Positions 48,426 to 61,796 of a DNA stretch of 64,000 nt are shown piece by piece. The DNA comes from Aquimarina spinulae (GTDB lineage Bacteria > Bacteroidota > Bacteroidia > Flavobacteriales > Flavobacteriaceae). Position numbers and translations under genes: made by a program. Numbering within the stretch: position 1 is the stretch's first letter; every line of letters begins with the position of its first letter. The DNA lies in the NCBI RefSeq assembly GCF_943373825.1, contig NZ_CALSBP010000001.1:186001-250000 (forward strand), written 5' to 3'. Under the pieces are notes generated by a model. That model saw only the letters and a program-made list of their open reading frames with translations, did not search any database and had not been told where the DNA came from.

Positions 48426-49535
48426 TTATACTTTTTCTTTTATTTTTTTAGGAATACCATCTTTATGAAGTAAAATCCCTACGGTTTTCATTCTAAAATA
48501 TGCTTCAGACATATAAAGATACCCATGTTGAGCTCCTTTAATTCCCCATGAATTTTTGATCTTATAATACGTTTTTCCTTTTTTATCAACGCCTTTGCCT
48601 ACTAAATGCATTAAGTGATCATCTGTAGTATTGTAATTTTCGAATTCTTTTTGTCGAGATTCGGGAGTTACTTTTTCTTCTTCAATATATTCTTTAAATG
48701 CATCTTTACGTTCTTTCTTATGAGTTAGAATTGCCAAGCCACTTTTTTGAGAAAACCCTATTTCACTTACATCTCCGTCCCAAGCTACAGTGTACCCTTC
48801 TTTTAAAGCGTGATCAACAACTTGTTGTAACTCATCAAGGGAGATATTATGATATATACCATTAGAGAAATTATCTGGGATTTCCAGAATAAAATCACTA
48901 TTCATGGGATGATGGGTAAAAGAGGTTAGTGTGATGTAGTTATTTGCATCAATCCCAAGTTCTTTGGCAAACTCAATAGGAGTATAGGTTTTGTTATTAT
49001 ATGTAAAAGTATCAGGTCTTTCTCCAAGATAGATATCTAACATAGCTTCATAACTTTTCCACCAGTTTTTTGAAAGAATTTTGTGTTTCACTGCGTTATC
49101 AACCATATTGGTTAATAATTTAATTAATTCACTGTGATCGTGACGGTCTGCAATACTTCCTGCAAAACCTGTATACATTTGATTAGGGATAATTCCGTGT
49201 TTACGAATAGATTTTATAACATCATGAGCAAGTGCTCCTTCACTAAATTGGGCTTTACCTTGTCTTAATATATAATTTCTGGCTTTATCTGTGTATGTAT
49301 TTCTGACTTGAAATACTTCTGATAAATCGTGAACTCCGTGTCCTAGACGAGCAATTTCTGACTCAATATAAGAAGTGGTAGAAAAGCTCCAGCAGGTACC
49401 TGTTTTTCCTTGACTAATAACAGGATTGCATTTAAGAGATATTTCATCTGTTATACTATAATCGGGATGTGTTTCTTGAGCATATCCTATAGATAAAAAT
49501 AGAAACATGCAATTAATAAAAAAGAGTTTTTTCAT
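48426..49535 (-). CDS. Exported C1-family cysteine peptidase (bleomycin hydrolase-like)
   Basis: The start MKKLFFINCMFLFLSIGYAQ at 49535 gives a normal signal peptide; the longest frame adds eight residues. The 369-residue protein has the catalytic Cys in QGKTGTCWSFSTTS (about residue 46 of the export form), the His in TDDHLMHLVGKG and the Asn in KIKNSWGIKGAQHGYLYMSE, the order of papain-fold C1B peptidases. Unlike most bleomycin hydrolases it is exported, so it probably degrades peptides in the envelope or outside. Confidence 0.9.
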   Translation of the reverse strand: MKKLFFINCMFLFLSIGYAQETHPDYSITDEISLKCNPVISQGKTGTCWSFSTTSYIESEIARLGHGVHDLSEVFQVRNTYTDKARNYILRQGKAQFSEGALAHDVIKSIRKHGIIPNQMYTGFAGSIADRHDHSELIKLLTNMVDNAVKHKILSKNWWKSYEAMLDIYLGERPDTFTYNNKTYTPIEFAKELGIDANNYITLTSFTHHPMNSDFILEIPDNFSNGIYHNISLDELQQVVDHALKEGYTVAWDGDVSEIGFSQKSGLAILTHKKERKDAFKEYIEEEKVTPESRQKEFENYNTTDDHLMHLVGKGVDKKGKTYYKIKNSWGIKGAQHGYLYMSEAYFRMKTVGILLHKDGIPKKIKEKV

Positions 49536-49618
49536 TTTAGTTATATGATTTGTAGGCAATGAAGGTACAAGAAAATAGATAAAAAAGGAAAACTCAACTT
49601 AAAAAAATAAAGCGGCTA

Positions 49619-52171
49619 TTACCAAAAAATTCTAAAGCTAATATTAGGAGTAATCCCTAGTGATAATATATCAGAATTGATCAACTGGTTATTAAGAGAA
49701 TTTGTTGTTCTAAACTCTCGATTTAGTAAATTCTTTTTATTGTATAAATTTAAAACAGAAAGTCCAATTCTGTATTTTATATTGGGATTATATCCTATTT
49801 TAAAATTATAAATAGCAGAGAAATCTAACCTGTGATATTCTGGAAGATTATTACTATTAATCTCATCAAATTCTAAGATTACGATTTCACCACTTTCATC
49901 TACTCCAGATACATTAGTATAGGCTTTACCTGTATGCCAAATCCACCCCAGAGAGAACTGAAAATTATTAATTTTATAAAATTGAGACCATTTTACGGTA
50001 TGTTCAATATTCCAATTACCAGGAAAAGATTCATTGTTATTAATGTCTTCAAATGTATTACGGGTATTGATATAAGAATAACTAACCCAGGTTTTGTAGT
50101 TTTTAAACCTTTTTTTTAGAAAAAGATCGATCCCAAAAATTCTACTTTCTCCTACATGGTGAACATTGTCTATGGGGTTAATAAAACCTGCGGTTAATGT
50201 AGTGATATCTTCGATTTGTTTATAATACCCATCGATATCCAGGTACCATTTGTTTTTTCTAAAACTGCTTCCCAATGTAAACTGATAACTGCTAATCACG
50301 GGAAATTGCTCATTGTTTGCCAATGTCCAAACTTGATTTTCAAGAGATAAGTCACTCACGACAGATTCTTGTATCTGACTGGTTGATTGACTTCTGTATT
50401 CTAGACTAGTATTGATTTCCCAGTTTTCGGTAATATATTTTTGAGCAAACACCCGAGGTTCGATATACGTTTTGTCGAGCTCTGCATAAAAATTGAAACG
50501 TAATCCAGCAGAAACATAAAAGTTTTTTGGATTATCGAATGTGTATTCTGCATATGCTGCATGTGTATTTAAAAAACGATCATCTTCATCCAGAATTAAC
50601 TCATAACTTGGGGTTGCAGTAACAAAGGCATATCTAATCGTATTGTTGGATAATTGATAACCTCCAGAAATGTTTTGATATTTTGATAGTTCATAATTTA
50701 ACCCAAGTTCTGCCCCATAATCCCCAACAGTATTTTTTTTACTTTCGATTTCGGTTATTGCTCCTAGATTTCTGGTGATGAACTGATAATTTAAAAGGTA
50801 TTTGGTATAATACCCACTTACTTTGGTATTAAAAGTTTTACTGTATGTGTGACTCCATTTAAAATTATACCCTTCATTTTCTGTAGTAAGGTCATCATTA
50901 AAGGACTCGATAGCATCACTTCTTCTAAAATCTAAGTCATTTTTACTATAAATCGTGTTAATTTCAATTTTGTCATTATCTGAAGGCTGTAGAATTAAAT
51001 TCGCATTATAATCTATATAGAAAAAATCGTTATTTTCATTATTAAGGGTAACGGTTTCGGCAATTTTAGTATTCTGAAAAACGCGATCAGAGAGTTGTTT
51101 ATAGGTAAATGTTTCTAAAACATCGGTATATGATCTTCTTCCTGATACCTGAAGTGATATTTTGTCTCGTATGATAGGAATATGCGCTACTATATCTGCA
51201 TTGATCATATTAAATCCGGCTCCACCAGAAAAACGTTCTGCAATTTGGTTTTCGGATTTAATATCTACAACTCCTGCAATTCTATCCCCATACTTGGCAC
51301 TAACTCCACTTTTAGAAAAATTCACCTCTTTAGCTACATATGGGTTAAATGCAGATAGCATACCAAATAAATGTCCCTGATGGTAGGTTTTTATACCATT
51401 CCATAGTACCAGGTTTTGATTAGGAGAACTTCCTCTTACAAATAACCCAGAAGCAGTCTCAAAAGGATTGTTAACACCAGGAGTGAGTTGTATAGTTTGT
51501 AATATATCTGGCTCTGTACGCCCAGGAAGAATTTCTACATTATTTAAATCAATATGAATTATTTCTTTGTTTTGGGTAATTCCTTTGGCTAAATACTCCT
51601 GAATAAAAACTTCGTCCAAAATTTCTTCATGCGCATTGGTAAGATATATTTTAATACACTCGTCGGTTAAAAACGATTTAGAATTCAAAACCCTTTGGCG
51701 AAATCCCGGAGCGCTAATTAAAATAACCGAGTTGTATGGTACCTGATTACTTTTAAAATAACCCGTGTTATCGGTAGTTACATTAGTGCGATTAGCTTTA
51801 AAAAAAACTCCTATATCCTTAAGAGGCTTTTGCTCTTTATCTAAAATATATCCACAAACAGAAATAATATCTCTTTTATTTAAAACACTAATGGTAACGA
51901 AGTTTTCACCAGTGATTTTAAACTGTAGTTTCGTTTGTTGTTGTAGTTTTTTTATTAAATCTTCTAGAGAGAGTTGAGGATTTAGAGTTATAGAAATATT
52001 TTTATCCTTTATAAAAGTATCGATGTAAGAAAACTTAAGACTATAAAATGCTTCAATTATAGGGATTACTTCGGGGAGTGGTTTATTATTGATAGTAACA
52101 ACTTTTGCTTCTTCCTGGGAAGAAACAGATATGCTACATAAGAAAATACATACACATAGAAGTCTTATCAT
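49619..52171 (-). CDS. TonB-dependent receptor with STN signalling domain (FecA-like)
   Basis: The 850-residue outer-membrane receptor has a signal peptide (LLCVCIFLCSISVSSQ), an STN/secretin N-domain (about 30-95; SLEDLIKKLQQQTKLQFKIT), a carboxypeptidase-regulatory-like domain (about 105-190; VCGYILDKEQKPLKDIGVFF), a plug (LQTIQLTPGVNNPFETASGL) and a 22-strand-type barrel. STN domains contact a FecR anti-sigma factor, so this receptor both imports and reports a ligand. It follows fecR by 4 bp and has no SusD partner of its own. Ligand unknown. Confidence 0.9.
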   Translation of the reverse strand: MIRLLCVCIFLCSISVSSQEEAKVVTINNKPLPEVIPIIEAFYSLKFSYIDTFIKDKNISITLNPQLSLEDLIKKLQQQTKLQFKITGENFVTISVLNKRDIISVCGYILDKEQKPLKDIGVFFKANRTNVTTDNTGYFKSNQVPYNSVILISAPGFRQRVLNSKSFLTDECIKIYLTNAHEEILDEVFIQEYLAKGITQNKEIIHIDLNNVEILPGRTEPDILQTIQLTPGVNNPFETASGLFVRGSSPNQNLVLWNGIKTYHQGHLFGMLSAFNPYVAKEVNFSKSGVSAKYGDRIAGVVDIKSENQIAERFSGGAGFNMINADIVAHIPIIRDKISLQVSGRRSYTDVLETFTYKQLSDRVFQNTKIAETVTLNNENNDFFYIDYNANLILQPSDNDKIEINTIYSKNDLDFRRSDAIESFNDDLTTENEGYNFKWSHTYSKTFNTKVSGYYTKYLLNYQFITRNLGAITEIESKKNTVGDYGAELGLNYELSKYQNISGGYQLSNNTIRYAFVTATPSYELILDEDDRFLNTHAAYAEYTFDNPKNFYVSAGLRFNFYAELDKTYIEPRVFAQKYITENWEINTSLEYRSQSTSQIQESVVSDLSLENQVWTLANNEQFPVISSYQFTLGSSFRKNKWYLDIDGYYKQIEDITTLTAGFINPIDNVHHVGESRIFGIDLFLKKRFKNYKTWVSYSYINTRNTFEDINNNESFPGNWNIEHTVKWSQFYKINNFQFSLGWIWHTGKAYTNVSGVDESGEIVILEFDEINSNNLPEYHRLDFSAIYNFKIGYNPNIKYRIGLSVLNLYNKKNLLNREFRTTNSLNNQLINSDILSLGITPNISFRIFW

Positions 52172-52175
52172 TCTA

Positions 52176-53090
52176 CTATTTTTCTAATACCACAGTCTTG
52201 CTATCTTTCGATACGCTATACTTCATGCCTAAGGTACTAAAAACTGTTCTAAGAGCAACTTCCTTATTATTATTAGGGAAAGTTCCTGTATATATAGTTT
52301 CGAGATTTATCTCTGTTGTTTTAATTTTTAAATCATATTGCTCTTCAAGCTCCTTAAATACGTATTTGATAGGTGTACTTCTAAACGAGCTTGTATTACT
52401 AAGCCAAGAAGGCTCTCTGATATCAAAAACCCAGCTTTCTGGCTCGGTGTTTTCAAGATTTCTATATCCTTTTCCTACTGTTAGGATTTTTTTATTTCCC
52501 TTATTAGTAACACTAACTTTACCTTCATAACAAGTAACTTCAAAAAAAGAATTTTGGGATTGCACATTAAATTGGGTTCCTAATACAGAAACTTCTCCGT
52601 TTTCAGTAGTAACAGTGAATTTACTTCCTTTTTTTACTTTAAAAAAGGCTTCTCCTTCTAAGGTTACCATTCTGTTTTCTTTCCAGTTTTCTTTGTCAAA
52701 ACTTGCTAAAGATCTAGCATTTAGAATCATTTCTGATCCATCTGGTAATGTTACAGATAATTGTTCTCCAAAATTCGTACTGAAAGACTCATTGGGATTA
52801 AATAAAAAGATCCCCAGAATAATTGCAATCGAAGCGGCAACCGCAATATAAGGCCATAATTTTATAACCGAATTAGATTTTTCTTTTGCTGTATAACTCG
52901 ATTTTGATTTTAAAGCAGAAAGTTCTTTTTCTACATCATAATCTTTTAGATTCAAAGCATCAGCGCCAGCCATTATTTTTACATAATACTCATACTCAGG
53001 GTGGGATTTAAACTCACGAAGTTCCTCTTCAGAAAGCTCTCCGCTAATCCACCTGGATAAGAATATATCATCTTTTTTATCGTCTAACAT
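52176..53090 (-). CDS. FecR-type anti-sigma factor
   Basis: The 304-residue protein has a cytoplasmic N-terminal anti-sigma region (FLSRWISGELSEEELREFKS), a membrane helix (LWPYIAVAASIAIILGIFLF, about 83-102), the periplasmic FecR domain (VTLPDGSEMILNARSLASFD to NVQSQNSFFEVTCYEGKVSV) and a C-terminal DUF4974/STN-like domain (FKELEEQYDLKIKTTEINLE). It links the receptor downstream and the sigma factor upstream. A proposed ECF promoter lies between the sigma gene and this gene (53112-53138). Confidence 0.93.
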   Translation of the reverse strand: MLDDKKDDIFLSRWISGELSEEELREFKSHPEYEYYVKIMAGADALNLKDYDVEKELSALKSKSSYTAKEKSNSVIKLWPYIAVAASIAIILGIFLFNPNESFSTNFGEQLSVTLPDGSEMILNARSLASFDKENWKENRMVTLEGEAFFKVKKGSKFTVTTENGEVSVLGTQFNVQSQNSFFEVTCYEGKVSVTNKGNKKILTVGKGYRNLENTEPESWVFDIREPSWLSNTSSFRSTPIKYVFKELEEQYDLKIKTTEINLETIYTGTFPNNNKEVALRTVFSTLGMKYSVSKDSKTVVLEK

Positions 53091-53111
53091 AACTTCGGCA
53101 TATAATATGTG

Positions 53112-53138
53112 AACGTTTTATTTTTAAATTACCCTACC
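53112..53138 (-). promoter_or_regulatory. Proposed ECF promoter, copy A (before fecR)
   Basis: On the minus strand GGTAGGGTAA (53129-53138) is followed by 13 bp and CGTT (53112-53115), 21 bp before the fecR start codon. The same 10-mer, spacing and 4-mer occur at 53777-53803 and 60571-60597 upstream of two lipoprotein genes. Confidence 0.8.
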
Positions 53139-53178
53139 TCTTTGTATTAAAAAGTTTTTTAGGTTAACTAGATTTCCT

Positions 53179-53700
53179 TTAAATATTTCCTATTTTTCCT
53201 CTTAGTGTTAATAATGCTTTATGCATCAATTTTTCTATAGCTTTTACAGAAACATTCGATAGCTCTGCAATTTCTTTATATGTTTTTTTATCTATTCGAC
53301 TTAGCAAAAACACTTCTCTTTGGCGTTCTGGTAAATCGGCAATTGCATTTTTTAATTTTTCCATATACTCTTTCTCAAGAGCGATAAATTCTGGGGACTC
53401 GTGGTTGACATCTGTTTTACGTTGTGTAATATAATCTCTGTATTTAAACTTTACTTTTTGATGTCGTGTAATGCTAATACCAAGATTGGTCGCGATAGTA
53501 TAAACATAACTTTTGGCCTTATCTATAGATACTTTAGAACAATTATTCCAGAGTTTAATAAATGCATCCTGAACAATATCTTCTGCCTGTTCGAGATCTC
53601 CAAATTTGTAATAAATATAATTCCTCAAAAGTTTAGAATTACTCTTGAAGAACTTGTCAAAGACTTGCTCGTTACATGTAGAATTATTGTTGTCAGACAT
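53179..53700 (-). CDS. ECF RNA polymerase sigma factor (FecI-like)
   Basis: The 173-residue protein has sigma-2 (KLLRNYIYYKFGDLEQAEDI, then VQDAFIKLWNN) and sigma-4 (IADLPERQREVFLLSRIDKK, YKEIAELSNVSVKAIEKLM). It belongs to the FecI/RpoE-like group that is held by FecR proteins. The next gene downstream is fecR, 88 bp away, with its own proposed promoter copy. No copy of that element was found in front of the sigma gene itself, so it may be transcribed from a basal promoter. Confidence 0.93.
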   Translation of the reverse strand: MSDNNNSTCNEQVFDKFFKSNSKLLRNYIYYKFGDLEQAEDIVQDAFIKLWNNCSKVSIDKAKSYVYTIATNLGISITRHQKVKFKYRDYITQRKTDVNHESPEFIALEKEYMEKLKNAIADLPERQREVFLLSRIDKKTYKEIAELSNVSVKAIEKLMHKALLTLRGKIGNI

Positions 53701-53776
53701 TTAGGGGAATAAAAATATATTTTCAAATCTAGATTTTTTTTTCAAGCTATCAAAGAATAAAAAATGAAAGTATGGG

Positions 53777-53803
53777 GGTAGGGTAATTTTTTTTTAAGCC
53801 GTT
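53777..53803 (+). promoter_or_regulatory. Proposed ECF promoter, copy B (before PKD lipoprotein 1)
   Basis: GGTAGGGTAA at 53777-53786, 13 bp, then CGTT at 53800-53803. The lipoprotein start is at 53867, leaving a leader of about 55-60 nt. See copies A (53112-53138) and C (60571-60597). Confidence 0.8.
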
Positions 53804-53866
53804 TCACTTTAAGAGAGGTTTAAAAAGCTTCTGAAGAAAATTTAGTAACCCCTAAAATTATTTACG

Positions 53867-55027
53867 ATGAAAAAACTTGGTATTTGGTATACGTTAATAC
53901 TTACACTTGTATTAGGATTTACCTCTTGTGAAACTGAAGATTTTAATAGTGATCCAGAGGTCGAGATTGTTATTGATAACAAAGAAGGAAGTGCGGTTTA
54001 TAGTTTTGAAGCTAAGACAAGCGGGATTGACAATGGTGCACAGACGATTTGGTCTGTAGATGGAAATGATATTGAAGGAGAAGATGAAGAAAATATTATT
54101 AATCAGATCTTAGATTACCTGTTTGAGCCTGGTAAACATACCATTTGTGTTAGAATTATAACCGAACAAAGAACAATAGAAGCCTGCACTGATATAGAGG
54201 TAGAGGTAGACGAAAATAATCCTTGTCCCGATTTGTTTTTTAGAAGTAAGCATTATCAAGGACGATCTACTTATAAGTTTTATGCAAATTTTAGAGGAAT
54301 TAATGAAGTGTCTTATGGATGGTATATTAATGATAGATTGGTAGAAGATTCTGCACCTGATGAAGATAATTATTTGATTTGGGATTTTAAAGAACCGGGA
54401 AGATATGAAGTGTGTATAAAAACAGAAACGCCAAATTGCCCAGAAGGAGTTTCTTATTGTAAAGTTATAGAAGTAGAAGAATCAAATTTGGTTTGCCCAG
54501 AAGTTTCTTTTACAAAAGAAACAGAACCAGGAACGGTAGGGACGTATACTTTTGGAGCCAAGATAGAAGGTGTAGATGAGGTAAGCCAAATACTATGGTA
54601 TGTTGATGGAAAGGTTGTTGAATCACCAAAAAATGATCCACAGGCAGGAAATAGAACTCTTGTATATCAATTTAATTCTGGAGTTCATGAAGTGTGCTTA
54701 AAAGTGATTACACCAGATTGCCCAGAGGGAGTAAAATATTGTAAAGAGATAAGAGTAGGGGATTGTCCGGATCTGTTCTTTGAACCAGAGCGAGATGGCG
54801 ATAAAGCTGCATATTATTTTTATCCTCGTGCATTCGAAGGAATCGATGACGTTACTCTAGAGTGGTTTGTTGACGGAAAATATGTAGGTAAATCACCAGA
54901 ATTCCCTCATAACAACCCATTTTATCACGAATTTGATGGACCAGGGAGATATGAAGTGTGCTTAATGATAGAAACTCCAGAATGCCCTGGCGGAACATCA
55001 TTCTGTAAGGTTATAGAATTTGAATAA
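53867..55027 (+). CDS. Cysteine-rich PKD-like repeat lipoprotein 1
   Basis: A lipoprotein signal (LTLVLGFTSC) with an acidic mature start (CETEDFNSD) suggests surface exposure. Four PKD/Ig-like repeats of about 85-95 residues follow. Repeats 2-4 share the pattern CPxxxF at the start, a WYxxxxxV strand, then VCxKxxTPxCPxGxxxC at the end (for example HEVCLKVITPDCPEGVKYC), giving four cysteines per repeat; repeat 1 is more divergent. The protein is divergent to the sigma gene and has promoter copy B. It probably binds or displays something outside the cell (inference). Confidence 0.85.
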   Translation: MKKLGIWYTLILTLVLGFTSCETEDFNSDPEVEIVIDNKEGSAVYSFEAKTSGIDNGAQTIWSVDGNDIEGEDEENIINQILDYLFEPGKHTICVRIITEQRTIEACTDIEVEVDENNPCPDLFFRSKHYQGRSTYKFYANFRGINEVSYGWYINDRLVEDSAPDEDNYLIWDFKEPGRYEVCIKTETPNCPEGVSYCKVIEVEESNLVCPEVSFTKETEPGTVGTYTFGAKIEGVDEVSQILWYVDGKVVESPKNDPQAGNRTLVYQFNSGVHEVCLKVITPDCPEGVKYCKEIRVGDCPDLFFEPERDGDKAAYYFYPRAFEGIDDVTLEWFVDGKYVGKSPEFPHNNPFYHEFDGPGRYEVCLMIETPECPGGTSFCKVIEFE

Positions 55028-55108
55028 TTGCTTGATTTTCTATTCGTTTCTAATAAAAAGAATAGAATACAAAATATGATAAGTTAGTTAGGTTAGATTA
55101 ATTAGGTT

Positions 55109-55144
55109 GATTCCCCGGGAGCGAGGCCATGCTTTTGGGGAATC
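55109..55144 (+). terminator. Possible terminator after lipoprotein 1
   Basis: GATTCCCC and GGGGAATC pair around a 20-nt loop, followed by TTTATTTATA, about 80 bp after the stop. The large loop makes this a moderate call. Confidence 0.45.
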
Positions 55145-55451
55145 TTTATTTATAGGATTAAGATGTAGTATGATTTTTAGTTCCTGAAAATAACTAATTG
55201 ATCACAATGCTTAACATAAGAATTAGAAAGAACGACACATTAAGTAGAGTAGTTTTTATATTGTCTTCTAAATCATCCCATTTTGAGCGAAGTCACTTGT
55301 TTTTGATACATCTTCTTTTATCCAGAGAAAACTCCTTTAGATTTATATTTAATGTTCTAATAAGACCTAATTTGATCGAAGAATAGAAAGCCACAGAATG
55401 TAAAATGAGGGAATATCGTTGTAGATAATTTAGCAATTGTAATATTGATGT
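55145..55451. other. Intergenic region between lipoprotein 1 and SusD
   Basis: No credible gene is seen; a 62-codon frame at 55198 looks like chance. The region contains one interspersed-repeat-like core at 55271-55297. Confidence 0.5.
55271..55297. repeat. Short interspersed repeat-like core
   Basis: CATCCCATTTTGAGCGAAGT resembles the TGAGC.AAGTC repeat core found in many Flavobacteria and the elements at 3299-3324 and 21906-21933. It is more degenerate than those. Confidence 0.4.
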
Positions 55452-55488
55452 AAAAAAATAGGGATGAGATTTTATATCTCACCCCTAT
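55452..55488 (-). terminator. Terminator of the susCD operon
   Basis: On the minus strand ATAGGGGTGAGAT pairs with ATCTCATCCCTAT (one mismatch, 5-nt loop) and is followed by seven T residues, about 30 bp after the susD stop. Confidence 0.8.
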
Positions 55489-55519
55489 ACATTATGTTAA
55501 TAATTATCTGAAATATTGA

Positions 55520-56974
55520 CTAGTTCAAATCCCAGAAAAGTTTTGTTTCTGCAAGATCACCACCTATTGCAGTAGAACCAGTGGTCCAATTAGTAGGATT
55601 TAAAGTCTGCTCAATAACAGGATATGTATATCTGTTTGGGAAGCCAGACTTAGGTTTGTCAGGAGTGGCTAATATTGGGAAATCTAAAAGTCTGATTGAA
55701 GTCCAGGCTTCTATACCTCTATTAAATAAGGCTATCCATTTTTGATTACCGATTACTTCTTTCCAAGGGGTTGTAGCAGTACTTGCAGCCAAAGCAGTAT
55801 CGTAATCAACTTCTGGTTGAGCAAGATAGGTTAAGGCATCTGCATTTGTTCCTCCCCAACTTTCTATTGATTCTACTACAGCAATATCATAGTGACTTTT
55901 TGCTGTTCCGCCCACTGCAAAAGTTCTCGCAGCAGCTTCGGCCAATAAAAACTCAACTTCTGCATAATCTAAAATTATACCGGGAGTTGTAGCTGCTTCT
56001 ACCTGAGCGGATACGTGAGAATGCGAATCATAATCCGAGGTCATACCAATACCTCCTCCAATATAGTTGCCAGTTCCAGGTACTTCTAAAAAGTATAAGG
56101 GTCTTCTGGGATCATTTAATGTATTCATCATATCTATAATTGTAACTGCAGCAACAAAATCATTTCTTCCACTCAAAACTAAATTATTATGAATAGGATT
56201 TGTGTTAGGAGCTGCTGCTAAATATGTGAAATTAGCATTATCGGCTCTACTGGTAAATACGCCACTTGTCACAGCATCTTCTACTGTAGTTCTAGCAAAT
56301 GCATTATCTACATCAGATAGTAAAATACCCATTCTTAGTTTTAAGGAAGCAGCAAATTTTTTCCATAGCGATGTATCACCACTATAAATATTATCGGCTG
56401 CTCCAAAACTTCCTTTGCTCGTATCTAAGGCATCGATAGCAATAGAAAGTCTTCCTATAAGATCTTTATAAATCGTCTCACCATCATCATATACTGGTAA
56501 TAAATCATCAATATCTAAAGCTTCTGTGTAGGGAACATTTCCAAAAGTTTCTACTAAGATACTATAGGTATAAACGGTTAATATTTCTATTACCTGAAGT
56601 TTATTGGCTTTAGTTTCAATATCAGCAGGTAGTGAATATTGCGTTTCTGCAATAATCTTTGCAGCTTCGTCAAAATCTTTTAAAACATCTTTATAAAGAA
56701 CACTCCAATGTGTAGCAGGAATGGTTCTTGTTACTTGATCATATTGGCTTTCTTGTAAATATGTTGTTTCCTGTAAATATTGCGCCCAAAGCTTCGTGTT
56801 ATTATTGTTCACGTTTAGATCGACCATTTGGTCAACCAAGTTCTTCTGTGCACCTGTAAATAAAGTTTCACCCGGAACAGAAGATGGATCTTTAATATTC
56901 TCATTCAGACTCTCGAGATTATCTGAACAAGATGCTATAATTACTGCTGTAATTAGAATTAATAATTTTTTCAT
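55520..56974 (-). CDS. SusD/RagB-family nutrient-binding lipoprotein
   Basis: The 484-residue surface lipoprotein (signal ending in AVIIASC) matches the SusD-like group: YLQETTYLQESQYDQVTRTI, ATHWSVLYKDVLKDFDEAAK, and the TPR-type helices ETFGNVPYTEALDIDDLLPV and SLWKKFAASLKLRMGIL. The C-terminal part has YAEVEFLLAEAAAR and WIALFNRGIEAWTSIRLLDF. SusD proteins cap the SusC channel and capture the ligand. No glycosidase or peptidase is encoded beside it, so the ligand is unknown. It follows susC by 12 bp. Confidence 0.93.
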   Translation of the reverse strand: MKKLLILITAVIIASCSDNLESLNENIKDPSSVPGETLFTGAQKNLVDQMVDLNVNNNNTKLWAQYLQETTYLQESQYDQVTRTIPATHWSVLYKDVLKDFDEAAKIIAETQYSLPADIETKANKLQVIEILTVYTYSILVETFGNVPYTEALDIDDLLPVYDDGETIYKDLIGRLSIAIDALDTSKGSFGAADNIYSGDTSLWKKFAASLKLRMGILLSDVDNAFARTTVEDAVTSGVFTSRADNANFTYLAAAPNTNPIHNNLVLSGRNDFVAAVTIIDMMNTLNDPRRPLYFLEVPGTGNYIGGGIGMTSDYDSHSHVSAQVEAATTPGIILDYAEVEFLLAEAAARTFAVGGTAKSHYDIAVVESIESWGGTNADALTYLAQPEVDYDTALAASTATTPWKEVIGNQKWIALFNRGIEAWTSIRLLDFPILATPDKPKSGFPNRYTYPVIEQTLNPTNWTTGSTAIGGDLAETKLFWDLN

Positions 56975-56986
56975 CTTTGCTATTTT

Positions 56987-59900
56987 TTAAAATTGTAATT
57001 TTAAGTTGAAACCTATGTCTCTAGTTGTTGGTAAAGGTCCAGTAGAATATCCTTGTAAATTACCAGAGCTTAAACCTCCTTCAGGATCTTCATGAGGAAT
57101 ATTTTTATCAATAATCCAAAGATTAGAACCAATTACACTAAAAGATACATCACTTAAAAAGGTGCGGTCAATTATTTTTTTAGGAAAAGTATATGTTAGA
57201 GAAACTTCTCGTAATTTTATATAACTAGCGTCGTAAACGAAAGCCGAGTCAGGAAAACCTCCATCCGATCCAAAAAGAGTATATTCATCTCCTGGAAGTC
57301 TTGTGGTATTTGGAGAACCATCAGCGGTAACACCTGGATTAATAAAGCCTCCACCATCTGCTAAGGTGTTTCTTACAGGGTTTCCAAGATCATTTATAAA
57401 AGCAGTTTCAGCATATAAACCAGTACCTAAACCATAGTATTGATCCAAAGAGAATATATCTCCACCTTTCTGAATGTCAATTAAAAAGCTAAAAGCAATA
57501 TTTTTATAGTTAAACTTATTAGAAATACCCATTAACCATTCTGGGTTTGTATCACCAATTACATTGTTAGATGCAGTAGTTTTTTCATAGTATCCATCAG
57601 CGTCAACAATTCTCTGACCATTTAAATAAGTATAATCAGTACCGTAAATAACTCCATAAGGTTGTCCTATAGTAGCATTTATTGTTATGCCTCCCTGAAA
57701 ATCACCTAGTTGTAAGTTTTCGATACCGTCTTCTAAGGAAATTACTTTATTTTCATTTTTAGACCAGTTTACATTCACATCCCAGCTAAAGTTTTGTGTT
57801 TGTACAGGAGTTCCGTATACAGATAACTCAATACCTTTGTTTTCAATTTCTCCTGCATTTAATATTTTAGAAGTGTATCCTGTTCCTCTACTTACAGGTA
57901 CTCCAAAAATTTGATCTATAGAGTTGTTTATATAATATGCGATGTCAAACCCAAGTCTACTTTGTAAAAGTTTCATCTCTAAACCAAGCTCTGTACTTGT
58001 TGTTCTTTCAGGTTTTAAATTTGGATTCTTTTTTACATTACCAACTGAAGTGCTTGCACTTCCAATAGGTGTATTTACAATATAGCTATCATATAAAAAG
58101 TCAAAAGGAGCACTGTTACCCACTTCTGCATAATTTGCTCTGATCTTACCGAATGAAATAATATCTGTATTTAAAAGATTAGAAAAAACAAAACTACCTG
58201 CAATGGATGGATAATAGAATGTACTATTATCTTTAGGTAGTGTTGAAGAATGATCTCTTCTTATTGTACCATCCAAAAATAACATGTTTTTATATCCTAA
58301 AGATACACTAGCATACACGCCGTCTACTCCAATTTTTTCATCTCTTTCAACTGGTAAAGGAAGAGGGCCTTTACTGTTTTGTAAAGAATATAACCTAGGT
58401 ACACTCAATCCACCACTGGTAGATGCATAAATAGATTGAAAATGATTTCTTCTGATATTAGTTCCTAGAGTTCCTTTAATGTTAAATTCGTCGCTTAAAT
58501 TTTTGTTGAAATTAAACATTAAATCATAGTTGGTCTCTGTGTTTTGAATATCTCTTCTTCCGTAACCAGAATCTACGTTACCTCTACTAACTCCAAAACG
58601 AGTAGGAACACTACCATTTGCTCTTCTTTCCTCTTGCAATTCAGAATATGTATCTGTAGCAACTCTACCGGTAATATCAAACCAATCTGTTACTTTGTAA
58701 TTTAAAGAAACGTTACCTAAGAAACGATTTCTCGTATCGGTTTGGTAATTTTCATATCGTTTCCAATATGGGTTATCCCAATAAATAGGAGCAGAACCTG
58801 CATTAGCAGAGGCGGGGTTCCAAGTTACATTTCTTCTTGTAGCAAAATAGATGTTTTCTTGTTGTTTTAGATCAACATTGGTTTGCCACCATTGTTTAAA
58901 CATACTGGTGATATTATCGTTATACCCTGTAGAGTTACGACCTAAACCATCTGTTTTGATATAATTTGCATAACCTGTGGCTGTTAATTTATCACTAAGT
59001 TTAAAGCTTCCGCTCATAGAAAAATTATGCTTCTTTATAGAGCTGTTAGGCATTATCCCAGTTTGATCAAACTTAGTATAATTTAACCTATAAGAACCTT
59101 GATCAGTTCCTTTATCAAATGATAGAGAATTTATAATGGTTATTGGAGTTTCGAAAAAGGTAATAGGGCCATTCTTTGCATTTACCCAAGGAGTAGCTAT
59201 TCTATAATTAGGAGAATCGGGATCTAAAGCATCCCATTGGTATACTAATAAGCTAGAATCAAACGGAGATCCATAAGAAGCATCATGGCTATATCTAACT
59301 GTTCTATCATCTGCTGTACCATCACCAAGAATGTCTCGTTGATAAAAACCTGAACTATAACCTGCACCATATTGCGTTTGATATTTTGCAAATGTACTTT
59401 TATCAATAGATCCAAATGTCATTCCAGAACTTACAGTGATACCTAATCCCTTAGATTTCCCTCCTTTTTTAGTAGTAATCATAATTACTCCATTTGCGGC
59501 TCTTGACCCATAAAGGGCAGATGCAGCTGCTCCTTTTAAAACATTTATAGATTCTATATCTTCAGGATTAATATCTGATGCTGCATTTCCATAATCATAA
59601 TACCCACCTCGAGCATTTGCCTGACCTACAGAATTACTATTTGTATTATTGATAGGAACCCCATCAATGACAAATAAAGCCTGATTACTTCCTGTTAAAG
59701 AAGCGTTACCTCTAATAACAACATTGGTAGATCCTCCTAAGTTATTATTTCTTTTAATTTGAAGACCAGAAGCTTTACCAGAAAGAGAGTTTACAAAATT
59801 TGCAGTCTTCACTCTGTTTAAATCTTCTCCGTCAACCTCTTGTGTAGAATATCCCAGAGATTTTTTATCTCTAGAAATACCAAGTGCAGTAACTACTATT

Positions 59901-60211
59901 TCTTCTAATTGAGAAGCGGTGACTTCTAATTGTACATTAATAGTTTTTTGGGTACCGACAACAACTTCTTGATCGGCAAAACCAAGATAACTGAATACAA
60001 GAGTACTCCCTTCTGAAGCTTGTAACGAATACATCCCATCAAAGTCTGTTTGAGTTCCACTGTTGCTGCCCTTTACGATAATGTTTACACCAGGTAAAGG
60101 TGTGCCACCATCGTCTGTGACCTTACCTGTAATAGGGGTCTCTTGCGCAACAGAAAATTGCGTCACTAATACTGTTAAAAGTATTAGCATGTTTTTAGTT
60201 AATAATTTCAT
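56987..60211 (-). CDS. SusC/RagA-family TonB-linked outer-membrane protein
   Basis: The 1074-residue protein has a signal peptide (MLILLTVLVTQFSVAQ), a carboxypeptidase-regulatory-like domain (about 28-105; GKVTDDGGTPLPGVNIIVKG, DFDGMYSLQASEGSTLVFSY), the TonB-box region LEEIVVTALGISRDKKSLGY, the plug (RVKTANFVNSLSGKASGLQI, VLKGAAASALYGSRAANGVI) and a large barrel ending in IGFNLKLQF. It forms the transport channel with SusD. No STN domain is present, so it does not signal to FecR directly. No copy of the GGTAGGGTAA element lies in front of it. Confidence 0.95.
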   Translation of the reverse strand: MKLLTKNMLILLTVLVTQFSVAQETPITGKVTDDGGTPLPGVNIIVKGSNSGTQTDFDGMYSLQASEGSTLVFSYLGFADQEVVVGTQKTINVQLEVTASQLEEIVVTALGISRDKKSLGYSTQEVDGEDLNRVKTANFVNSLSGKASGLQIKRNNNLGGSTNVVIRGNASLTGSNQALFVIDGVPINNTNSNSVGQANARGGYYDYGNAASDINPEDIESINVLKGAAASALYGSRAANGVIMITTKKGGKSKGLGITVSSGMTFGSIDKSTFAKYQTQYGAGYSSGFYQRDILGDGTADDRTVRYSHDASYGSPFDSSLLVYQWDALDPDSPNYRIATPWVNAKNGPITFFETPITIINSLSFDKGTDQGSYRLNYTKFDQTGIMPNSSIKKHNFSMSGSFKLSDKLTATGYANYIKTDGLGRNSTGYNDNITSMFKQWWQTNVDLKQQENIYFATRRNVTWNPASANAGSAPIYWDNPYWKRYENYQTDTRNRFLGNVSLNYKVTDWFDITGRVATDTYSELQEERRANGSVPTRFGVSRGNVDSGYGRRDIQNTETNYDLMFNFNKNLSDEFNIKGTLGTNIRRNHFQSIYASTSGGLSVPRLYSLQNSKGPLPLPVERDEKIGVDGVYASVSLGYKNMLFLDGTIRRDHSSTLPKDNSTFYYPSIAGSFVFSNLLNTDIISFGKIRANYAEVGNSAPFDFLYDSYIVNTPIGSASTSVGNVKKNPNLKPERTTSTELGLEMKLLQSRLGFDIAYYINNSIDQIFGVPVSRGTGYTSKILNAGEIENKGIELSVYGTPVQTQNFSWDVNVNWSKNENKVISLEDGIENLQLGDFQGGITINATIGQPYGVIYGTDYTYLNGQRIVDADGYYEKTTASNNVIGDTNPEWLMGISNKFNYKNIAFSFLIDIQKGGDIFSLDQYYGLGTGLYAETAFINDLGNPVRNTLADGGGFINPGVTADGSPNTTRLPGDEYTLFGSDGGFPDSAFVYDASYIKLREVSLTYTFPKKIIDRTFLSDVSFSVIGSNLWIIDKNIPHEDPEGGLSSGNLQGYSTGPLPTTRDIGFNLKLQF

Positions 60212-60570
60212 TATTGCATGTTAATTTTTGTTAGTAAGCAAGGTTATTAAGAATATTTAGAGGAGAATAGTGATAGTAATTTTTTAACAAAAGATTAACC
60301 TCAAATTTGTAAGGGTAATTATTTGAAACGACTAAATAAGATTTTTATCTATTTGTGAAGAAATTTTAGATCGTTTTAAACTCTATAACTTTATAGAACG
60401 ATGAATATCGAATATTGTGATTTAAGACCCAATGTTTTTTTATAATAATACAGGTAAATTAAAATTTATCGAGTTGTTTTATTATTTTTAAATATGTTAG
60501 ATGTATTTAGATAGTCTTTTGATTCTAATTTTATTTTATATACATTCATCCATATTAAATAGAGAAATGG
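60212..60570. other. Intergenic region between susC and lipoprotein 2
   Basis: AT-rich sequence without a gene. It must contain the susC promoter on the minus strand, but no clear box was recognised. The sequence GTAAGGGTAA at 60310-60319 resembles the ECF element only partly (spacing to a CG is 10 bp) and was not accepted as a copy. Confidence 0.5.
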
Positions 60571-60597
60571 GGTAGGGTAAATGAGTTTGTAAACGTT
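60571..60597 (+). promoter_or_regulatory. Proposed ECF promoter, copy C (before lipoprotein 2)
   Basis: GGTAGGGTAA at 60571-60580, 13 bp, then CGTT at 60594-60597; the start codon at 60624 lies 26 bp downstream. Spacing and both elements are identical to copies A and B, while the 13-bp spacers differ, which argues for selection on the elements. Confidence 0.8.
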
Positions 60598-60623
60598 ATA
60601 AATATATCTAGAACAGTTTAATA

Positions 60624-61796
60624 TTGAATAAATTAAGTACATATTGCAAAGGTTTTATACTCGCATTGGTAATGTTTACATACTCTTGTGTAAATGATGA
60701 CTCTTTTTTTCCTGATAGTATAGATGCTAAGATTACATCTACAACAACAATAGTATCTATCCTTAATGATATAAAAACAAGAAATTCGATAGTAAACGAA
60801 GAAGATCTGTGTTTTACTTTTAAATACCCATTAATATTTGGATATAATACAGATTCGACCATACGAGTTGATGACTATCAAGGGTTACTTGGAGTAATTT
60901 CTGGACAAAGCGCAAATTTTAATATAACCGGGCTGCAATTTCCTGTTCAGATCATGTTTAAAGGAGCCAATAGTACAATTCTTGTAGAGAATGAAGATAC
61001 TTTGATTAATGTGCTTAGAGAATGTGAGATAAAAACGTTTAGAGACGTTTTTAATCATTTATATAGGCAATGTTTTAAGTTTGAATATCCTATTGTTCTA
61101 AACGATAAAGACAATAAAGAAGTAGATATTGATACAGAGGAAAGCTTTAGTCGTTTTCTTGTAGATCAAGGTGCTAATTATCAACCAGATTTTAAGTTTC
61201 CAATATCGATATTAGTTACTCCTGACCTTAAACCGACACGGATATCAACATATTATGAATTTTATGAAATTATAAATAATTGCATTGGATGTCCTGCAAT
61301 ACGATTTGAAATCCAACCTTTACAAGAGAATGAGTATAGGTTTATTCCAGATATTGAGATTATGGAAGGATATCAATTGTTTTTCAAAATCAATGGAGAA
61401 GTGATTACCGATCAGGTTATTGATGGAAACCCATTTACAAGACAATTCACCCCAGGAACATATGAAACGTGTATAAAAGTAATTACGACTAACTGTCTTA
61501 AAGGAACAATTGCTTGTAAAGAAATTGTAGTAGAGCCTATTTGTCCCGTTGTTACATTTACTAATGAACGGGTTACAGGTACAAATACATATAAATTTAA
61601 CCCCTCTGTTACGGGAGTGAGTAATGATGTTACTATAGGTTGGTATGTAAATGAAGTTTTTATCGAAAACTCATTGTTAAGTGCCGGGATAGTAGAACTA
61701 GATTTGGATCAAGGTACAAATAATGTATGTGCAAAAGTGATAACTCCAAATTGCCCCAATGGGCAAAAGTTTTGTGATGAAGTAGTTGTTCCCTAA
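60624..61796 (+). CDS. Cysteine-rich PKD-like lipoprotein 2
   Basis: The start appears to be TTG at 60624: the frame has a stop shortly upstream, no earlier ATG exists, and the lipoprotein signal (ILALVMFTYSC) follows at once. The acidic mature start is CVNDDSFF. The N-terminal half has two units of one domain (CFTFKYPLIFGYNTDSTIRV and CFKFEYPIVLNDKDNKEVDI, each ending in a FPxxI strand). The C-terminal half has two PKD-like repeats with the same cysteine signature as lipoprotein 1 (TCIKVITTNCLKGTIACKEI, VCAKVITPNCPNGQKFCDEV). Shared promoter and repeats link both proteins. Function unknown. Confidence 0.8.
   Translation: MNKLSTYCKGFILALVMFTYSCVNDDSFFPDSIDAKITSTTTIVSILNDIKTRNSIVNEEDLCFTFKYPLIFGYNTDSTIRVDDYQGLLGVISGQSANFNITGLQFPVQIMFKGANSTILVENEDTLINVLRECEIKTFRDVFNHLYRQCFKFEYPIVLNDKDNKEVDIDTEESFSRFLVDQGANYQPDFKFPISILVTPDLKPTRISTYYEFYEIINNCIGCPAIRFEIQPLQENEYRFIPDIEIMEGYQLFFKINGEVITDQVIDGNPFTRQFTPGTYETCIKVITTNCLKGTIACKEIVVEPICPVVTFTNERVTGTNTYKFNPSVTGVSNDVTIGWYVNEVFIENSLLSAGIVELDLDQGTNNVCAKVITPNCPNGQKFCDEVVVP

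Follow-up and report, generated by a model that had tools for sequence, protein, structure and literature searches.

In a 64-kb stretch of the Aquimarina spinulae genome (contig NZ_CALSBP010000001.1, positions 186,001 to 250,000; hereafter the window), a FecI-type sigma factor, a FecR-like anti-sigma factor and a TonB-dependent receptor are encoded side by side, and we propose that they form a cell-surface signalling (CSS) system with both a coding and a noncoding arm, in which the sigma factor would read the promoter element GGTAGGGT-N15-CGTT. We put the probability of this reading at roughly 0.84. The original prediction, drawn from the window alone, held that this sigma factor reads a repeated element found before fecR and before two surface lipoprotein genes, and there is a good probability that it named the right controller. 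It called the regulon complete, however; the regulon is probably wider, with its surprising part outside the window, as the core of the element is also found ahead of two or more RNA genes at other places in this genome and of many other genes in relatives.

The steps of binding, induction and RNA function in this mechanism are ones that we infer from the observed element, its position, conservation and co-occurrence, and from the anatomy of the RNA genes. The module would consist of the FecI-type sigma factor, the FecR anti-sigma factor and the TonB-dependent receptor with its periplasmic signalling domain. By analogy with FecA/FecR/FecI, engagement of the receptor would make FecR let the sigma factor act, which would then transcribe fecR and the receptor gene in a feedback loop, the two surface lipoprotein genes (one divergent from the sigma gene), and at least two small RNA (sRNA) genes at distant loci, the noncoding arm. 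By analogy with the sRNAs of sigma-E, these RNAs would probably tune mRNAs for envelope components, and the proteins would meanwhile remodel the surface. Paralogous sigma factors of the same genome have a like anatomy, but their -10 box is TGTT and the genes that follow it are different ones.

The element in the window and in Aquimarina genomes

The window contains three exact copies of GGTAGGGTAA-N13-CGTT (Table 1), with differing 13-bp spacers and 21-63 bp before start codons; positions, strands and spacing are all as originally described. Without mismatches this form is found nowhere else in the 6.24-Mb genome, and with up to 2 mismatches the window still holds only these three copies, while shuffled windows give a mean of 0.18 and at most 2. 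Genome-wide there are three sites with one mismatch, two of which precede sRNA genes. The core GGTAGGGT-N15-CGTT has six exact matches in the genome, namely the three window copies, two before the RNAs and one in a coding gene.

Of 52 Aquimarina genomes, 48 have at least one match to the core; the sites total 228, whereas the reversed pattern gives 12 (a control total added by hand). We classed 88 distinct sites, a chosen part of the 228 that lies mostly outside the sigma locus and in which orthologous sites count separately: 4 precede fecR, 20 a lipoprotein-like open reading frame (ORF) and 10 another ORF, 21 are followed by a terminator and no ORF, 28 by neither, and 4 lie inside ORFs in sense and 1 in antisense orientation. 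The classes are crude, since the RNA1 site (L182) is entered under lipoprotein ORFs and some rows without an ORF (e.g. L246) start a missed one. Many random matches in coding regions had been named beforehand as what would speak against the element; five of the 88 sites lie inside ORFs.

The element in related loci

The A. spinulae genome has four sigma/FecR/receptor loci of one type (the window locus, L047, L048 and L050), the paralogous receptors being 31-39% and the sigma factors 35-51% identical to those of the window. A receptor-profile search in named genomes gave at least 556 loci, of which the best 80 were kept; the 79 of these with a fecR gene and the three paralogous loci make up a set of 82 related loci, 79 picked by receptor homology and none by motif. 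The pattern NNTAGGG-N16-NGTT stands before fecR or the sigma gene in 73 of the 82, across genera: before fecR in 62, and before the sigma gene in the 11 where sigma gene and fecR are 9-15 bp apart. At L048 there are three copies of GGTAGGGT-N15-TGTT: one precedes fecR, another a divergent RloB-like transglutaminase/7TM gene and the third an alpha-L-glutamate-ligase-like gene; at L047, AATAGGGT-N15-TGTT precedes both the sigma-fecR-receptor genes and a divergent lipoprotein gene. At L050, whose sigma factor is 35% identical, no element was found. Nor is one present within 400 bp upstream of any of the nine other fecR genes of this genome (one, L046, has a bare GTAGGG and no -10 box). Most of these other FecI/FecR pairs sit beside SusC-like receptors, with the protein families and layout of the window locus.

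Sigma loci and the first -10 base

The sigma gene often sits between two elements pointing apart. Outward-facing pairs about 570-690 bp apart were seen by eye in 17 of the 35 genomes among those listed, the sigma gene between them being confirmed in A. spinulae itself. Family-wide, RGTAGGGT-N15-YGTT has a match in 93 of 120 genomes; the reversed control also gives many, so single matches on this scale mean little. There are 43 loci in which both elements end in C or T plus GTT. Their first -10 base is the same in all 43 (10 C/C and 33 T/T), against a mean of 27.6 and a maximum of 37 under shuffling, and the two bases preceding TAGGG are the same in 33, against a mean of 14.8 and a maximum of 25; the shuffles ignore relatedness, so that the agreement is strong yet carries no formal probability. 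The first -10 base, CGTT or TGTT, probably keeps paralogous regulons separate.

Sigma factors of the two classes also differ. We compared 68 of the 74 element loci, six being dropped for a missing or short sigma factor or another -10 base, and at sigma positions 33, 75 and 76 the C and T classes share no residue: the 21 C-class rows have F at position 33 and S (one D) at position 76, and the 47 T-class rows have C or S and N, respectively. Together with the 73 of 82 related loci, the nine other fecR genes and the agreement of the -10 base, this makes it well supported, as far as sequence comparison goes, that the sigma factor of the window reads the element, as originally proposed.

Predicted small RNA genes behind the element

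RNA1 and RNA2 are predicted to be roughly 75 and 120 nt long. Each has a terminator no further than about 80-120 nt from the element and a fold z of -4.0; by their sequence they would be sRNA genes that lie behind the promoter of the sigma factor and end in a terminator. Covariance models were built from the RNAs without their promoters, from training sequences that had been found through the element in 5 (RNA2) and 4 (RNA1) of the matched genomes, and were searched against the 52 genomes. The RNA2 model matches in 19 genomes, and the element lies upstream in all 19: 14 are GGTAGGG...CGTT at 25-61 nt before the model start, three are GGTGGGG forms at 27-35 nt, and in the remaining two an insertion leaves the element at 132 nt, one of these two being a GGTGGGG form whose spacer is longer. 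The insertion, in L208 and L211, is about 100 bp of repeat-like sequence between element and RNA2, and the RNA there would be longer. The RNA1 model matches in 24 genomes (one row per genome), 15 of which have the element upstream; among the 15 are an AGTAGGG form, a GGTGGGG form and one whose spacer is longer. We treated as chance the matches without an element (L228 and L231-L238, E 7e-6 to 1e-3) and the opposite-strand matches L239 and L240.

Over eight genomes, identity rises at the RNA2 element and falls past the terminator; for RNA1 it stays high from the element as far as about +50, drops in the terminator and climbs again in the neighbouring gene. In the terminator stems, pairing is retained through two-sided changes in 6 of 13 and 5 of 18 consensus pairs. 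An RNAalifold consensus of 18 RNA2 rows keeps the terminator alone, the inner stem of the five-sequence model being gone, and by eye no start codon is common to all rows of the RNA2 alignment. Rfam gave no match at the RNA loci searched; the window has matches to tRNAs alone, and L091 has one to an unrelated DUF805b.

A close sigma factor (at least 69% identity) is encoded in 37 of the 52 genomes, including 18 of the 19 with RNA2 and all 12 with a third structured block, RNA3, a co-occurrence that shared ancestry alone could explain. The RNA3 genomes are other Aquimarina genomes, from a different clade, and none of them has RNA2. The element lies 35 nt before the RNA3 model start in five of them (four being training genomes), overlaps the start in one and lies 1.15-1.19 kb upstream in six. 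Of these six, L255 was examined, and there the block forms the 3' end of the gene for a secreted protein with a type IX sorting domain; RNA3 may therefore be a gene remnant.

Among 84 loci (80 relatives, the three paralogues and the window), 45 carry an element that points outward from the sigma gene, 29 before an ORF and 16 before an ORF-less stretch, 15 of the latter outside Aquimarina. A scan that missed an earlier long-loop Kordia terminator visible by eye found terminators in 7 of the 16; their fold z runs from +0.5 to -6.1, and three Kordia stretches look alike by eye. In four (L116, L126, L127 and L132) an ORF follows 240-280 nt downstream. A noncoding arm may, tentatively, be a frequent part of FecR/TonB surface signalling in Flavobacteriia: the outward element would drive a structured sRNA in Kordia, Psychroserpens, Lacinutrix and others, or a lipoprotein or enzyme gene elsewhere, so that receptor occupancy would set surface proteins and a regulatory RNA at once, with the first -10 base as the address separating parallel systems in one cell. 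We hold this generalization somewhat less probable than its opposite, and the four leader-like stretches have lowered its odds.

Separately, four tandem copies of an RNA gene of about 110 nt, each with its own element, occur in L176 (2461-3110); three share a terminator and the last differs.

Points against and alternative explanations

A number of observations weigh against a sigma factor that reads this element before both protein and RNA genes. With two mismatches allowed, the element is at background genome-wide (41 matches against 40 for the reversed-pattern control), so that one genome alone could not decide the question, and one of the six exact core matches, C2:1827143, sits within a coding gene. 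The exact form is absent from nine of the 82 related loci (L050, L078, L081, L084, L098, L102, L120, L134 and L143), of which L081 and L084 have GGTAGGGT and L078 has GGTGGGGT with one extra spacer base, and L102 is truncated by a contig end. The split in sigma residues needs just two changes on the tree, with one supported independent pair, so that residues reading the -10 base are offered as a hypothesis, a lead and not a result. As for the RNAs, nine of the 24 RNA1-model matches lack the element, and although all nine have E 7e-6 or worse, two with the element stand at 2e-5; the RNA1 terminator is poorly conserved, the fold of a diverged RNA that occupies the RNA1 place in L191 is weak (z -1.85), and an ATG is seen by eye in 12 of 14 RNA1 rows. 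One 89% complete assembly, G024, has an RNA2-model match and shows no close sigma factor. Among 360 gene starts, the best predicted RNA1 duplex is weaker than those of 20 of 20 shuffles and the best RNA2 duplex is beaten by 3 of 20, and sequence complementary to the RNA2 loop shows no enrichment (26 matches against 42 in the control). Finally, it is the -10 base alone that would assign the RNAs to the window sigma factor and not to the paralogue with GGTAGGGT and TGTT.

Some of these points feed the view that the sigma factor controls fecR, the receptor gene and the lipoprotein genes only, the RNAs being leaders, decayed genes or small-peptide mRNAs. The ATG of RNA1, the RNA3-like stretches far behind the element in six of 12 genomes with the protein-gene end in L255, the elements that precede long leaders of small membrane proteins, and the ORFs behind four of the 16 outward stretches all fit it, and those four stretches raised its standing. 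Yet RNA1 and RNA2 end in nearby terminators whose pairs are kept through double changes, and RNA2 lacks a universal start codon and loses identity past its terminator; we consider a regulon of proteins only unlikely. The element might also be bound by another regulator or read jointly by several extracytoplasmic function (ECF) sigma factors, instead of by the adjoining one. The window system and the L048 paralogue do have the GGTAGGGT half in common, and the ECF promoters with a CGT box in Flavobacterium psychrophilum may, as reported, be read by several sigma factors (PMC9723704); but fixed spacing and a place before fecR, the -10 base agreement within loci, the class-specific sigma residues and the absence of the element from nine other fecR genes make this very improbable. 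An artefact of chance or composition, which the background level of the two-mismatch form would allow, is scarcely credible and was rejected: no shuffled window reached three matches even at two mismatches, and the 228 sites against 12, the rarity of sites inside ORFs, the 73 of 82 loci and the 43 of 43 agreements all speak against it.

Gene organization of the locus

The gene assignments of the original prediction for sigma factor, FecR and TonB receptor hold (Table 1). The sigma factor scores 126.0 bits against TIGR02985, marginally below the cut-off of 126.4, and FecR scores 71.4 bits against PF04773 (cut-off 24). For the receptor, said to carry an STN domain, an N-terminal domain of signalling type is indeed present, but the Pfam scan did not report STN there and calls the domain FecR_C (PF16344), which we take to be STN-like. 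Judged from these domains, the locus fits a CSS system with sigma factor, anti-sigma factor and receptor, the signalling domain being recognized by architecture because PF16344 lies at the N-terminus and Pfam STN is not reported. Records from A. atlantica, A. macrocephali, A. megaterium and Aquimarina sp. Aq78 have receptors 96-97% identical to this one. The C1-like peptidase gene, found downstream of the receptor gene in 7 of 16 loci listed, is possibly the last gene of the fecR-receptor operon.

Table 1. Features of the proposed regulon (window coordinates, except for RNA1 and RNA2)
Feature	Position	Strand	Description
C1-like (papain-type) peptidase	48426..49559	-	PF03051; about 60 bp after receptor gene; perhaps also served by element 1
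TonB-dependent receptor/transducer, 850 aa	49619..52171	-	PF00593, PF07715; N-terminal PF16344 (FecR_C)
FecR-like anti-sigma factor, 304 aa	52176..53090	-	PF04773, PF16344; encoded beside sigma factor
Element 1, GGTAGGGTAA-N13-CGTT	53112..53138	-	Predicted promoter of fecR-receptor; 21 bp before fecR ATG at 53090
FecI-type ECF sigma factor, 173 aa	53179..53700	-	PF08281, PF04542 above cut-off
Element 2	53777..53803	+	Divergent from sigma gene; predicted lipoprotein 1 promoter; 63 bp before ATG at 53867
Lipoprotein 1	53867..55027	+	Signal peptide, tandem PKD-like beta-sandwich domains; PF06832 above cut-off, PF16820 below
Element 3	60571..60597	+	Predicted lipoprotein 2 promoter; 26 bp before TTG at 60624
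Lipoprotein 2	60624..61796	+	N-terminal alpha/beta region without Pfam match, PKD-like C-terminal domains
RNA1	C1:133534	-	Element at start, no long ORF, intrinsic terminator at end
RNA2	C2:1342724	-	Element at start, no long ORF, intrinsic terminator at end

Both lipoproteins appear to belong to the regulon, as proposed, the element being kept before them in orthologous Aquimarina loci. Element 2 precedes a lipoprotein-1-like gene in L066-L076, L080 and L086 (the copy nearest the sigma gene lacks the exact form in L072-L074, and in L077 no ORF follows), and element 3 precedes lipoprotein-2-like genes in L066-L077, L080 and L086. The structure model of lipoprotein 1 is nearly all-beta, with tandem beta-sandwich domains and a mean predicted local distance difference test score (pLDDT) of 77.6; that of lipoprotein 2, which has no Pfam match at E 0.001, combines an alpha/beta region with beta domains (mean pLDDT 86.5). 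The two are 34% identical over a stretch of 220 residues. Homologue searches gave 62 rows for lipoprotein 1 and 44 for lipoprotein 2 (itself included), the named ones nearly all from Aquimarina. Their proposed role as adhesins or binders is unsupported: the one lead towards it, a profile match to surface glycan-binding protein B, is very weak (E 0.3 and 0.095), as is the other solved-structure lead, Tako8, at E 0.006 over a single stretch of 56 residues.

In the window and close relatives a SusC/SusD pair (55520-60211) parts lipoprotein 1 from lipoprotein 2. We rejected it as part of the regulon, no element preceding susC in the window, and it looks like a later insertion because it is absent between the lipoproteins in L069-L075.

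Relation to known systems

The sigma factor, FecR-type anti-sigma factor and TonB receptor with signalling domain are common to this locus, FecA-FecR-FecI of Escherichia coli and the CSS systems of Pseudomonas. In CSS systems a sigma-dependent promoter precedes the receptor gene, according to a review (PMC9249621) in which the terms small RNA and sRNA are absent. Unlike in FecA-FecR-FecI, the Aquimarina element precedes fecR and receptor gene jointly, further sites lie before surface lipoprotein and sRNA genes, and no link to iron is seen. In P. aeruginosa an effect of HxuI is described as requiring the PrrF RNAs (PMC8768829). Such a dependence differs from an RNA gene driven by the sigma factor.

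E. coli sigma-E has a noncoding arm in MicA and RybB. To our knowledge, neither sigma-E nor RpoE2 of Sinorhizobium is released through FecR and a TonB receptor; the proposed likeness is that one ECF sigma factor drives proteins and sRNAs. The Aquimarina RNAs differ from those sRNAs in having no Rfam match. A noncoding arm, FoxI and FoxJ, is reported for the sigma-E of Fusobacterium (PMC11005410), and RpoE2 is reported to activate seven sRNAs (PMC6180224). In the same bacterial family, the SM6 promoters of F. psychrophilum are of ECF type with a CGT box at -10. Type IX secretion genes are among their targets, and TAGGG is absent as a string from the main text of that study (PMC9723704). No description of the element or of a FecI/FecR-type noncoding arm was found among the publications listed in the literature searches, whose scope left subscription journals largely aside.

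FecI/FecR/TonB systems are common regulators in Bacteroidota, and we know of no promoters or targets for most of them. Here a promoter word readable from the sequence, differing by one base between paralogous systems, leads to RNA genes that are not in Rfam. If the proposal is right, the regulon would offer a way to study receptor functions, and there would be a surface-triggered RNA response in a phylum whose sRNA control is little known.

Further sites

We note some peculiar sites: (i) At L064:8045 in the A. spinulae genome, AGTAGGGT-N15-CGTT lies about 170 bp before a gene for a glucose/sorbosone-dehydrogenase-like lipoprotein, a possible further member of the regulon. (ii) In L149, L158, L173, L259, L268 and L270 the element lies about 200 bp before an apparent small membrane-protein ORF (its length was observed in L154 and L261), with CCTACCCC in the leader. 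(iii) In L178 (position 3730) and on the minus strand of L179, near-identical AATAGGGTGTTCT-type TGTT elements precede two different short genes with signal-peptide-like starts, which are perhaps members of the regulon of the L047 sigma factor. (iv) In L177 (2968-6145) three elements about 1.57 kb apart precede tandem, near-alike genes for a secreted-looking protein of 392 aa.

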